Assembly: GCA_012033095.1 (NCBI GenBank)
Contig: JAAUPO010000012.1
Coordinates: 1-14,087 of the forward strand
Length of the DNA: 14,087 nt
Direction of reading: 5' to 3'
Source: Synechococcaceae cyanobacterium RL_1_2
Lineage (GTDB): Bacteria > Cyanobacteriota > Cyanobacteriia > Cyanobacteriales > JAAUPO01
Shown here in pieces: positions 8,161-14,087 of this stretch. The first letter of the stretch is position 1; each line of letters starts with the position of its first letter. The translations under genes were made by a program, and so were the position numbers. The notes below the pieces were generated by a model. That model saw only the letters and a list, made by a program, of their open reading frames with translations. It was not told where the DNA came from and searched no databases.

Positions 8161-10224
<2,064 letters not shown>

Positions 10225-10255
10225 TTACTACTGCTGTGGCTTAGGTGCCCAAAAG

Positions 10256-10341
10256 AGGACTTATCCACAAGCCCCCTAAATCCTCCAACGATGGGGGACT
10301 TGGTTGAACGATTGTCCCCAAACATGATGGTTCCCAGGACA
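10256..10341 (-). repeat. MITE family A, copy 3 (truncated by the IS1 element)
   Basis: This copy starts with AGGACTTATCCACAAGCCCCC, the intact terminus, and follows the family through ATTGTCCCCAAACAT and ATGGTTCCCAGGACA. It then stops where the IS1-type element begins (10343), missing the final ~30 bases that the other copies have. It lies about 90 bases upstream of ligA. Confidence 0.82.
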
Positions 10342-10342
10342 A

Positions 10343-11185
10343 GGCACTGGTCAGCTGAGGGAGGATAGGTTCAAAGCCCCTAGAATTAAGCATCTCCTGG
10401 AAACCTATCGGGCAGGAAATAAATCCCCTCTTCATTGCTGGCGTAGTATTCTTTCCTAAACTCTGGTGGGGACGTATCCAGTTGTGAACTAATCTTTGGA
10501 CATCCAATACCCTCTGCAATGCTTCCCGTGTCTTACTGTAGAGATTTTGTCTTCTGCGATAGCCACTACAACGACGACGCAAAGAGGCATTATGGGCTTC
10601 ATTGTGATTGGCATGAACTTCTGATTTATGGCTGATAGCGGTGTAGGGATGTTCCTGTTTCACCCACTCCCTCCTGGGTTTTCCTTGGGAGCCTTTAATT
10701 TTCATTGCTACTTCTAGTCCCTCTCGCCAGACTTTTCGATAGGGGTAGTTTTTGGGATACTTGTCCTGGACAAGATACACACTGGCTAATTTCCATAGTT
10801 CTTTGCCATAGCGTCTTTCTCCATCGGGGAACCAGCGACTATATGCACTAGCTTGAGCCCACTCCCAAGTTATAGTCAATTTAATTTAGTGTGGGTTGGC
10901 TGTATCTTGCGACGGAGTGCTTTCAGCTCTATTTGTTTCCCGTAATTATGCAAAATTATGCAAAAAGACTATAATTGAGTACTTTCTTGGAATAGTTTTT
11001 TGGTCTTTACTTCCTGTTTGCCCACTCACCCAATAACGGCTTTCTCGTTCGTAGAAGTTGATTGTCCATCCTTCACTCTCTGAGGGGGGGATGGTTTTTC
11101 CCTACGCGAGTGTAAATCTCATCTCCTTCTAGAGTAATGTCACTTTTTTCTGGGGCCCCTGGGTTCCACTTCTGTGCTTGGGCTG
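10343..11185 (-). pseudogene. IS1-family transposase, catalytic (InsB-like) part, broken
   Basis: This is the DDE catalytic region, read in -1 relation to the upstream InsA-like frame. Pieces in order: KIAAQAQKWNPGAPEKSDITLEGDEIYTRVGKNHPP; GWTINFYERESRYWVSGQTGSKD after a one-base insertion in the C7 run (11084-11090); LFQEST after a second one-base excess in the A6 run (10996-11001); then a nested repeat; then TWEWAQASAYSRWFPDGERRYG, the HANHNEAHNASLRRRCSGYRRRQN helix and HNWIRPHQSLGKNTTPA. These carry the expected acidic residues (GDE, PDGERR, NHNE). The frame reads out of the IS end into the truncated MITE and stops at 10241, so its tail is chimeric. It cannot make an intact transposase as sequenced. 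Confidence 0.85.
10871..10973. repeat. MITE family B, copy 2, inserted in the IS1 transposase
   Basis: The 103-bp element has perfect TATAGTC/GACTATA ends and matches 2171-2263 in inverted orientation. Removing it while keeping one TA joins the flanks as CAA TTA ACT TGG, which reads in frame across the transposase as FQESTQLTWEWAQA. This is direct evidence of a clean insertion with TA duplication. Insertion came after the IS arrived. Confidence 0.9.
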
Positions 11186-11455
11186 CTATCTTTTTTCCCA
11201 GTCCATAATGGTGACGTGGGATTTTCCGTATACTCTGCCCGTTGCTCGTAATCCCATGCCCTCTGTTCGACTATGAATGGCATATTCTATTATTTTGGGT
11301 TCAGTTCTCAGTTTTGCCATGGGGGTTCCTGTTCGTTCATTGAATCTACCACCACAGTCATGACACCGATAGTATTGGATTTTTTCTCCTATGCTTTTTA
11401 GGGTTCTTTTGCCATTTTTAATGGTATTTTTGCTTTCGCAGTAAGGGCAATTCAT
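11186..11455 (-). CDS. IS1-family InsA-like protein (zinc ribbon + HTH)
   Basis: The 89-residue product has an N-terminal zinc ribbon with CPYC (3-6) and CHDC (31-34), followed by KIIEYAIHSRTEGMGLRATGRVYGKSHVTIMDW, the helix-turn-helix of the InsA family. In IS1 elements InsA binds the ends and represses transposition alone, and fuses with InsB by a -1 ribosomal frameshift to make transposase. Just before the stop there is an A6G run (plus-strand T6 at 11191-11196): slipping back one base changes EKR-stop into EKKIAAQAQKW, which runs on into the catalytic part. The frame itself is intact, but its partner is ruined. Confidence 0.85.
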   Translation of the reverse strand: MNCPYCESKNTIKNGKRTLKSIGEKIQYYRCHDCGGRFNERTGTPMAKLRTEPKIIEYAIHSRTEGMGLRATGRVYGKSHVTIMDWEKR

Positions 11456-11503: not shown

Positions 11504-12058
11504 TTACCAGTGCCATGATCTACTCCTCACCCGCCCCGCAGATTGGATTATATCTTCTATCAGCTTAATGGCTTCAGTAATAGTTATGTGACCATTTTCA
11601 ACAGCAGACATTAATTCCTGGGCTTTTGCAGGGGTTAATAAATTAAGTCTAATTGGTTCTTTTAATAAACTGTATAGTTTTATGTTGTCTTTCTCATCAA
11701 TAGTAGAAACTCTTTCATTCCTTTCCATTTCTCTATGTAAATCTTTTAATTGTCTAAGCATTTCTGCTTTTTTCCCTTCATCGTAAGTGCCATCAAAGAT
11801 TATTTTTTTTACACCTACCAGGGCCGCTGCACCTAAAGCAGCACCACCTACGACTAATCCAATAGGAGGAGCAACTGTTACTAAACCAAACAAAACTGAT
11901 GTTCCTCCAAAAGCTGCTACAGCAGCGCCAGCACCAGCAGCACCAACAGCGCCAATGCTAATGTCAGTTAAAATACTTGATTTATTATGAGGATTTTTTT
12001 CTAGCTCTTCTATCGCTTTAAGAAGTTGCTCTTTAGTTAATTTTTTCTTGTCAAACAT
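11504..12058 (-). CDS. Glycine-zipper-like membrane protein, unknown function, C-terminus altered by IS
   Basis: I do not recognise this 184-residue protein. An N-terminal charged helix (1-28) is followed by a Gly/Ala-rich hydrophobic stretch at 34-84 (GAVGAAGAGAAVAAFGG, then VAPPIGLVVGGAALGAAALVG) that could be a membrane hairpin of glycine-zipper type. A charged, helical C-terminal part follows (KKAEMLRQLKDLHREMERNE, then LLTPAKAQELMSAVENGHITITEAIKLIEDII). The final residues HW and the stop TAA come from the terminal repeat of the IS1 element, so the native C-terminus is lost or at least altered. ATG at 12058-12056, 18 bases after the upstream gene, so the two are surely cotranscribed. AT-rich, without HIP1. 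Membrane or pore activity is inference only. Confidence 0.7.
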   Translation of the reverse strand: MFDKKKLTKEQLLKAIEELEKNPHNKSSILTDISIGAVGAAGAGAAVAAFGGTSVLFGLVTVAPPIGLVVGGAALGAAALVGVKKIIFDGTYDEGKKAEMLRQLKDLHREMERNERVSTIDEKDNIKLYSLLKEPIRLNLLTPAKAQELMSAVENGHITITEAIKLIEDIIQSAGRVRSRSWHW

Positions 12059-12076
12059 AATATATAGTTTAGATAT

Positions 12077-12613
12077 TTATGCTGTTATAACTTCGGCAAA
12101 AATTGTGTTGAAAATATCAGCAATAAACGTAAAAAACTCTTTAGCTATTTCAACAATATCTTCAGCCATACCCATGAAATTATTGGAAACTTGTTTTTCC
12201 TGTGCTTTTTTATCCAATCTATGGCCAGCTAGACCTAATATCGTAATTCCTAGTATACATGTTAAAGCTCCTGCAAGTGGTGATAAAACTGGGCCAATAA
12301 AGGGAATTGCATTTACTAAAGTTTGTACTGCTAAACCGATACTCAAGCCTATTCCTATCCCTGCAACTAAATGAGGATGAGCTTTTACAAACTCAATAAT
12401 TTTAATTAAAACTATTTTGCCAATATTAAACACTTTTTTTCCAATTTTTTTTGTGTATGTAATTAACTCATGTAGCTTATTCGCTATCTCTTTTGGTACA
12501 TCAATATCTACGAGCCATACATATATTTCGTTACTGGTAAATGAATCTGCTGTTGCTTGCAAAAGAGAAAGTTCTAAGTTGCTTTGGGCTAATTTTAATG
12601 TTGCTGAAGCCAT
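12077..12613 (-). CDS. Small membrane protein of unknown function, first gene of a two-gene operon
   Basis: The 178-residue protein begins with a soluble helical region (1-58: TLKLAQSNLELSLLQATAD, then VWLVDIDVPKEIANKLHELI), continues with an amphipathic lysine-rich helix (55-78), then two hydrophobic segments, about 82-101 (VAGIGIGLSIGLAVQTLV) and 104-130 (PFIGPVLSPLAGALTCILGITILGLAG). HRLDKK follows, then a further amphipathic helix at 148-174. The paired Gly-rich hydrophobic helices resemble those of the next gene. No enzyme motif or signal peptide is visible. ATG at 12613-12611 has no clear Shine-Dalgarno. A CRP-like palindrome lies about 70-85 bases upstream. I cannot name the family; a pore-forming or membrane-perturbing role is speculative. 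Confidence 0.7.
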   Translation of the reverse strand: MASATLKLAQSNLELSLLQATADSFTSNEIYVWLVDIDVPKEIANKLHELITYTKKIGKKVFNIGKIVLIKIIEFVKAHPHLVAGIGIGLSIGLAVQTLVNAIPFIGPVLSPLAGALTCILGITILGLAGHRLDKKAQEKQVSNNFMGMAEDIVEIAKEFFTFIADIFNTIFAEVITA

Positions 12614-12648
12614 GACATTCTTAATTTCAAATAGGTAAGGATAGGTAA

Positions 12649-12699
12649 CTTATTTTAAAATAAGATAAACCCATAATCATATATGTGATATATATCACT
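12649..12699 (-). promoter_or_regulatory. Putative promoter with CRP-like operator for the membrane-protein operon
   Basis: TGTGATATATATCACT (12684-12699) contains the perfect 14-bp palindrome GTGATATATATCAC and fits the TGTGA-N6-TCACA consensus of CRP and cyanobacterial SYCRP1. A second perfect palindrome, CTTATTTTAAAATAAG, occupies 12649-12664 and includes TATTTT (12662-12657 on the minus strand), usable as a -10 box. If so, the CRP-like site would be centred near -41.5, the classical activating position. A tandem ATAGGTAA repeat (12631-12648) lies in the leader. No start site has been measured. Confidence 0.4.
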
Positions 12700-12832
12700 T
12701 GATGAATAATCTGCTTATTGAGAGGTTAAAGTAATTGCATTTTTATGGTTTATTACCTTATTATTCATTCGCCTTACCCTTTAACACAGATAACTTGTGG
12801 GTACATCTCAATTATTCAGTGAGTAAGAATAC

Positions 12833-12993
12833 TCATTGGTAGAGAGAAAAGTAACTATTAAGGTAGGCACAACGACGATGAAGTACTTGGGGAACATTAT
12901 CTCTTTTCCATTGAGCTCCAGATATTTTGACTCGTTGTGCAATTTGTTTAACCGTAGATTCTACAGCTCCAGAACCAATGGTAATCCCCCTTA
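12833..12993 (-). pseudogene. C-terminal remnant of an ISKra4-type transposase
   Basis: Reading from 12988 down to the stop TGA at 12835-12833 gives 51 residues: GITIGSGAVESTVKQIAQRV, then KISGAQWKRDNVPQVLHRRC and AYLNSYFSLYQ. The GSGAVES...QRVKISGAQW pattern with the RRCAYLN tail is typical of the C-terminus of ISKra4-family transposases. The upstream part is gone: the frame is cut where repeat R2 begins (12996), so R2 insertion or a deletion removed the rest. Family assignment is from pattern memory. Confidence 0.65.
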
Positions 12994-13441: not shown

Positions 13442-13925
13442 TCATTTCGGTTGATGGGACTTAAGCGACTTAAGCCGTTGGGATTTAATTACTTTCAACT
13501 TAAATTTCAATCGATATCTGACCATGTGATGAACTGTGCCATACTCCGCTTTGATTCCTAATTCTTCCTTTAGCCATTGTTGAATTTCCCCATAGCTGTT
13601 GAATTGATGGCCTGGATCTTTTAATTTTTTCGCTAAAGCTTCTTCTGCCGATGGGGGGATCTTTCTCGTTCTTCCTTTTGCCTTCGGTTTGTCAGTGAGT
13701 AGTTGACTCAGCCCCCCTTGTTGATATTCCCTCAGCCATCTTTGTACGGTGGTTCTGTTTCTGCCGATCACTTGGGCTACTTGCACCACTTTGAGGGGTT
13801 GTTCTTGCTTTAACCAATACAACACCTGTAATTTTTCTTTTTTTGATGCCTTCTTTTTCTATTTTGAGTCTTTCCTGTAGGTTTTCTAGCGTTTCTTCTA
13901 TTTTGACTCCGGTTACTCCTACCAT
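13442..13925 (-). pseudogene. IS630-type transposase, N-terminal (HTH) half, frameshifted
   Basis: From ATG 13925-13923 the product begins MVGVTGVKIEETLENLQERL. After KEGIKK the frame is lost; removing one A from the A7 run (plus-strand T7 at 13838-13844) gives KEKLQVLYWLKQEQPLKVVQ and on through VAQVIGRNRTTVQRWLREYQ, a clear helix-turn-helix, then the winged second DNA-binding part ending ...KFKLKVIKSQRLKSLKSHQPK at 13442. This is the DNA-binding half typical of two-frame IS630-like cyanobacterial elements. The DDE half is not found downstream; repeat R1 lies there instead. It therefore cannot transpose unaided. Confidence 0.75.
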
Positions 13926-14087
13926 ATTTTTTTCGGGGAATATGAATATTTTTGTTTTTTGTTTTTTTTTGATTCTAACTATATTTTTCCCTTTTTGATT
14001 TAGCCTTCGTTTGATCAAAAATGCCACTCAAGTTCAACGTTAATCAATAATTAGGATTCAATAATCCACTCCCTAATAAATTGATAT

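Follow-up and report, generated by a model that had tools for sequence, protein, structure and literature searches.

We describe two uncharacterised families of membrane proteins, here called A and B, which are recurrently paired in cyanobacteria and proteobacteria, and for which we see an even chance that, judged from sequence comparisons, they form one inducible, exchangeable conflict or stress cassette that would act on the cell's own membrane. The pair was found in the window, that is, the whole stretch of 14,087 nucleotides analyzed from a contig of Synechococcaceae cyanobacterium RL_1_2. Recurrent pairing, a patchy distribution, adjacent regulators whose relatives in part serve conflict genes, and exchange of both the pair and the hairpin of B together suggest an inducible cassette of this kind, and the glycine-rich hairpins of A and B suggest the membrane as its site of action.

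A sequence-only reading had proposed two adjacent genes at this position, and their ORFs, strand, lengths and intergenic gap are all as claimed (Table 1). Given cyanobacterial relatives of similar length and high identity, A and B are to be regarded as genes and not as chance ORFs. The helical N-terminus and hydrophobic Gly/Ala hairpin that the same reading assigned to each protein also hold, as does the charged tail of B, whereas the tail of A is amphipathic rather than simply charged. In A, the helical N-terminus leads into a hydrophobic portion (residues ~81-131) of two helices with GxxxG motifs (80-101 and 107-137), which is followed by the amphipathic C-terminal helix (146-176). Structure prediction gave one confident model of A out of five, with six helices (mean pLDDT 82, pTM 0.60); the remaining four have mean pLDDT values of 45-62. 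B comprises N-terminal helices, the Gly/Ala-rich hairpin (~33-88) and a C-terminal domain (94-174) that is helical and charged; AlphaFold modelled this last domain but gave no model of the hairpin (pLDDT <50 at 36-90; mean pLDDT of B 63). The family match of B ends at position 11534, with the final nine residues beyond it. Fold comparison of the A and B models gave no informative match.

Table 1. Features of the window around the A-B pair.
Feature	Position	Strand	Basis or remark
89-aa ORF adjoining B	11186..11455	-	ORF listing; Pfam match sub-threshold
Gene B	11504..12058	-	184 aa, second gene of pair, ORF listing
A-B gap	12059..12076	-	18 bases
Gene A	12077..12613	-	178 aa, first gene of pair, ORF listing
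Region upstream of A	12614..12913	-	10-bp operator-like repeats absent (pattern test 0)
Transposase-type helix-turn-helix remnant	13442..13825	-	HTH_32 1.9e-12, HTH_29 1.5e-8

A search of 5.8 billion proteins at E <=1e-3 yields 288 relatives for A and 306 for B. Among the 120 matches listed for each, identity to other cyanobacterial relatives reaches 76% (A) and 79% (B), and the organism-named relatives are cyanobacterial, labelled hypothetical or, loosely, DUF2273; the A profile extends to proteobacteria, such as Nitrosomonas and Methylovulum. Neither protein has a match above cut-off in Pfam or NCBIfam, and the aligned relatives (39 of A, 38 of B) give no convincing core family, which agrees with the earlier statement that no named family is known for them; nor did these comparisons find a characterised housekeeping family, an outcome that would have refuted the sequence-only reading. 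Several candidates were rejected. DUF2273 (PF10031) is the label of A in some records, yet only 3 of 39 A proteins match it (best E 0.011). DUF883 (ElaB/YqjD) has no match to window A at E <=1, and the matches of its relatives are weak (12 of the 39 aligned A proteins match DUF883_C at E <=0.5, best 0.0025); A resembles the DUF883 and Gly-zipper families in its glycine-zipper-like hairpin, all sequence matches being weak. In PADLOC 2.0, window A has no match, B weakly matches LeoBC and PDC-M09A, and no system is matched by both; one A relative (P0048) weakly matches PDC-M40B and BnzA. LeoABC proteins, the subject of PMC4159319, are bacterial dynamins. The LeoBC match of B (1.6e-5) spans hairpin and tail and may reflect hairpin composition; a search of A and B for a dynamin or GTPase domain gave no Pfam match, and in NCBIfam only release factor 3 at 0.13, for B alone.

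The pairing itself recurs throughout. At all 37 loci from named genomes that were found with A (25 cyanobacterial, 12 from other bacteria), a B match lies downstream of A on the same strand; the non-cyanobacterial sources include Crenothrix, Methylococcaceae, Methylovulum, Burkholderiales, Thioploca, Desulfobulbaceae and Accumulibacter. These loci are not independent, and the counts are inflated by near copies (L005/L012/L013; L011/L016/L017; L096 and L097, which repeat L005 and L017). Some copies are damaged, with B split over two frames (L014), B ending after ~50 residues (L025) or A split (L036). Among 292 cyanobacterial genomes, the window genome included, A occurs in 18 and B in 16; A adjoins B in all 16 genomes that have B, and the two with A alone hold a fragment of 52 residues in one case (G048) and a weak, partial match in the other (G213). 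The sequence-only reading had proposed recurrent pairing elsewhere as a check, and A and B do occur together across phyla, in cyanobacteria and proteobacteria. Their spread is patchy: A is found in 10 of 201 genomes of the Crenothrix order, in 2 of 250 of the order of the Burkholderiales member, and, for the A type of L083, in 2 of 229 in the class to which L083 belongs. B directly adjoins A in seven of nine Crenothrix-order surroundings (L027, L031, L078-L084), a count that leaves out the tenth A genome (G461); in L081 a 116-aa B match lies ~630 bp downstream of A, and in L084 an ORF that by eye is transposase-like (632 aa) separates the two. Many A-B loci, including L003, L018 and L024, have housekeeping neighbours with no regulator in view, and the window is likewise of this sort. 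GTPase- and dynamin-type genes lie downstream of A-B in L029. A small repeat protein (repeats like GNIQYNKPSY) is encoded near A-B at loci from genomes of methane-oxidiser type (L026, L028, L080), two of which (L028, L080) have an additional Gly-rich hairpin protein nearby.

The window copy sits in distinctive surroundings. Of nine HIP1 sites the last is at 9979, and GC content is 0.35 from 11504 onward vs 0.43-0.45 before 11460, in agreement with the setting noted earlier as HIP1-free and AT-rich. The accompanying claim of transposon remnants stands in part: the 13442-13825 remnant matches helix-turn-helix (HTH) families found in transposases, whereas the Pfam match of the ORF adjoining B is sub-threshold, and in our reading that ORF resembles InsA, ORF 1 of IS1-type elements. 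Transposase-like fragments lie on either side of the A-B region (10241-10879, by eye, and 13442-14027). That the pair lies in mobile DNA is likewise upheld only as regards this insertion-sequence debris: window A is absent from plasmid and phage collections and its profile from viral contigs, and window B is absent from the plasmid collection. In relatives, the mobile unit looks like a cassette swapped at fixed chromosomal places. The source genome is an incomplete assembly (2.88 Mb, 61.7% complete) with a single copy of A. Searching the window by tblastn for the two types of regulator described below, HTH-NB-ARC and WYL, gave best E 1.1, located elsewhere. With neither regulator nor repeats in view, and amid insertion-sequence debris, the window copy may be silent or otherwise controlled, and is probably an orphan left behind among insertion sequences.

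At 13 of the 25 cyanobacterial loci, an HTH gene lies 179-420 bp upstream of A in divergent orientation; its product also matches NB-ARC in 12 of the 13, and in L010 matches the HTH part only. At 8 of 22 non-cyanobacterial loci, the TerB branch described below included, an HTH-WYL regulator instead stands beside A (L026, L029, L030, L035, L037 on the opposite strand, L080, L100 and L107), and both WYL regulators tested have HTH, WYL and WCX domains. Ten of the 37 named loci reach less than 1500 bp upstream of A, so that a missing regulator is hardly informative there. At these eight loci the arrangement resembles the BrxR/CapW-type WYL cassettes of BREX, CBASS and others (PMC9122601; see also PMC9122588), and relatives of the A-B regulator are neighbours of dynamins and of cas genes of type I-F; it differs in that A and B are no known effector. 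A sequence search of the WYL regulator against the PDB found nothing at 1e-3, and hence no match to the solved BrxR or CapW.

The spacer between regulator and A often carries direct repeats with a 10-bp period, for example CCGACTTTTTCCGAC. Compared with shuffles (<=2 of 200), the best short-period repeat stands out in 8 of 11 A-B spacers and in 17 of 40 spacers of other copies of the regulator; in the other three A-B spacers periodicity is not significant. The pattern ACWTT-N5-ACWTT occurs in 9 of 11 A-B spacers, an in-sample count since the pattern was chosen after seeing the loci; among the 40 other copies it occurs cargo-ward in 12 and in reverse in one. It is absent from 143 control upstream regions drawn from the same loci, occurs in 51 of 4000 random windows, and is absent from the window analyzed here.

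Relatives of both regulators stand beside other genes, of which known conflict types make up only a part. With the WYL regulator of L080 as query, 17 places were found in 16 of 201 Crenothrix-order genomes. Neighbours at the 16 further places were assigned by Pfam and PADLOC on chosen proteins (ten Pfam-checked; L126 assigned from its similarity to L125 and L127). Among them are, at L131, the type I-F proteins Cas1 and Cas3; L125, L126, L127, L132 and L139 have dynamin or GTPase genes, L134 and L139 have TerD and TerB, and L128 has LRAT. The other eight (L129, L130, L133, L135-L138, L140) show unknown or ordinary genes, a pair that by eye is toxin-antitoxin-like, or contig ends. In L131 (6456-13497) the regulator is directly upstream of the type I-F genes. 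At four places (L129, L130, L134, L135) it is followed by a protein of 522-536 aa without known identity, cut by the contig end in L134; four genes downstream of the regulator in L129 lies a match to PADLOC IetA (1e-28). According to PMC9122601, defence genes are under the control of BrxR-type WYL regulators, about half of which adjoin known phage-defence systems, and WYL-TerB fusions are mentioned in PMC4012209.

At 1e-60, 30 of the 146 cyanobacterial genomes searched have the HTH-NB-ARC family, which occupies at least 75 places; two of these genomes carry no fewer than 11 copies each, scoring being capped at 11 candidates per genome. Of these places, 40 were fetched (L171-L210), with proteins of ~450-490 aa. 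The nearest upstream ORF is divergent for 38 of the 40 vs 53 of 130 control ORFs, and the layout is typically one regulator and one cargo, with 10-bp repeats in many of the spacers. The majority of the 40 cargos have no assigned identity; Pfam checks of eight neighbour proteins from six places revealed varied types, namely an AIG1-like GTPase (L188), a dynamin with HTH (L176), a vWA, PP2C-like and kinase set (L201) and an N6_N4 methylase-Mrr protein (L204), the PP2C match and a GTPase match in L179 being below the Pfam cut-off, and the L173 protein having no Pfam match. Modular effectors with STAND-type NTPases, many of them cyanobacterial, are described in passages of PMC7159879 on NTP-dependent conflict systems, as is EACC1, a membrane system of two genes in which a transmembrane helix bears a glycine patch. 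A and B differ from these systems in that no caspase, EAD or VMAP part was found in either, and in that the NB-ARC protein at A-B loci is divergent, HTH-bearing and likely a regulator.

Cargo exchange is apparent at three chromosomal places: between flanks ~82-94% identical, the same regulator stands opposite A-B in certain genomes and opposite a different gene in further ones; we read these exchanges without direction. On a tree of 50 HTH-NB-ARC regulators, the label of facing A-B needs five changes. L014 and L177 share DNA of 91-93% identity adjoining the exchanged part on both sides, up to 53 bp upstream of the regulator start and again from 11440 of L014; the A-B stretch between (9839-11439 of L014) differs in L177, whose ORF there has 144 aa, apart from a 54-bp matching island. 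With flanks of 82-94%, L178 (a 133-aa ORF, by eye a relative of that in L177) shows exchange against L005, L012 and L013, and L171 (a 154-aa ORF) against L011 and L017; for L025, likeness to L171 is confined to the regulator side. No trace of A or B was found in L171, L177 or L178 at E <0.4. The regulators of L011 and L171 are 44-56% identical over their first 100 residues and 64-98% over the remainder, suggesting that the HTH may have swapped with the cargo, or diverged faster; for L014 vs L177 and L013 vs L178, the first 50 residues are 94-96% identical. Within B, comparison of L013 with the syntenic L005 and L012 gives dN of ~0.5 in residues 31-90, 0.01-0.04 in 1-30 and ~0.13 in 91-180, values which point to exchange of the hairpin between syntenic loci. 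For close loci, 12 pairs of A give dN/dS values of 0.19-0.84 and 9 pairs of B give 0.48-1.14, in overlapping pairs of low divergence; by this measure the tested pairs show purifying selection on A.

B is also modular, in that its C-terminal domain differs among relatives. It ends in a zinc-ribbon-like tail in L015, L018, L023, L024 and L056, in a tandemly repeated unit in L020, P0122 and P0201, and in a tail that by eye is SHOCT-like in L026, L028 and L035 (Pfam E 0.25 only). Distant B proteins carry TerB (E 2.3e-11 in L084; just above cut-off in L083), a component of the Ter stress and phage-resistance systems (TerB, TerC, TerD) treated in passages of PMC7824862. The relatives of the A-B regulators adjoin TerD and TerB and, in cyanobacteria, the vWA, PP2C-like and kinase set. 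Neither window protein matches any Ter domain at E <=1, including TerB for B and TerC for A. TerB-type relatives of B on plasmids of Paracoccus and Ideonella adjoin insertion sequences (annotated as IS21 in L106; by eye in L105).

If A-B is such a cassette, the regulator would repress it through the 10-bp repeats until a signal of stress or infection arrives, whereupon A and B would assemble in the membrane through their glycine-rich hairpins. The variable C-terminal domain of B might be the sensing or partner-binding part, and the hairpin and amphipathic helix of A the part working on the membrane. As the outcome, disturbance of the membrane that arrests the cell, of the abortive type, is slightly favoured over membrane protection. 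Against such a cassette speak the many loci with housekeeping neighbours and no regulator in view, the failure to find window A or B in plasmids and A in phages or viral contigs, and the purifying selection on A. The earlier suggestion of a defence module would find indirect support in the adjoining regulators and the cassette exchange, whereas the pore-forming effector and the toxin/immunity pair suggested with it stay conjectural. A more specific proposal, which we offer only tentatively, is that A-B may be an undescribed membrane effector pair, one interchangeable cargo of a repeat-bound, infection- or stress-sensing HTH-NB-ARC (STAND) switch, with cargo, HTH and B hairpin recombined at fixed places.

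Among competing explanations, one that we consider possible, on the doubtful side, is that A-B is an envelope-protection module, a scaffold that stabilises or repairs the membrane, induced by envelope or chemical stress and killing nothing. PspA-type and Ter-type systems presumably work in this way. The occurrence of TerB in distant B proteins, the TerD/TerB and dynamin neighbours of the WYL family, the small lipoprotein-like and repeat proteins seen by eye near A-B in L026, L028 and L080, and the lack of a toxic signature in A-B would all suit a protective scaffold; exchange of whole cassettes, and of a hairpin within B, is however more typical of conflict genes. A toxin-antitoxin or toxin-immunity pair, in which one hairpin protein disturbs the membrane and its partner neutralises it, is unlikely: two small, recurrently paired neighbouring genes, and the faster change of B than of A, are in keeping with it, but both proteins have the hydrophobic hairpin, no DNA-binding antitoxin family is matched, and the pair is absent from the plasmid collection. 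That A and B are accessory membrane proteins of ordinary physiology, unconnected with conflict, is very improbable: housekeeping neighbours at several loci and purifying selection on A speak for it, but most genomes examined have no A-B and a different gene occupies the same place in relatives.

Should the reading of A-B as a conflict or stress cassette prove true, two uncharacterised, recurrently paired families would join the conflict and stress repertoire of cyanobacteria and of methane-oxidising and other proteobacteria, and would be tied to Ter-type and WYL-governed systems. Fixed chromosomal places would then exist at which one STAND-type regulator stands opposite exchangeable effector genes, and both the switching-on of these effectors and their swapping between strains would become directly testable. 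If the tentative STAND-switch proposal is also true, a bacterial population would possess a changing repertoire of effectors.
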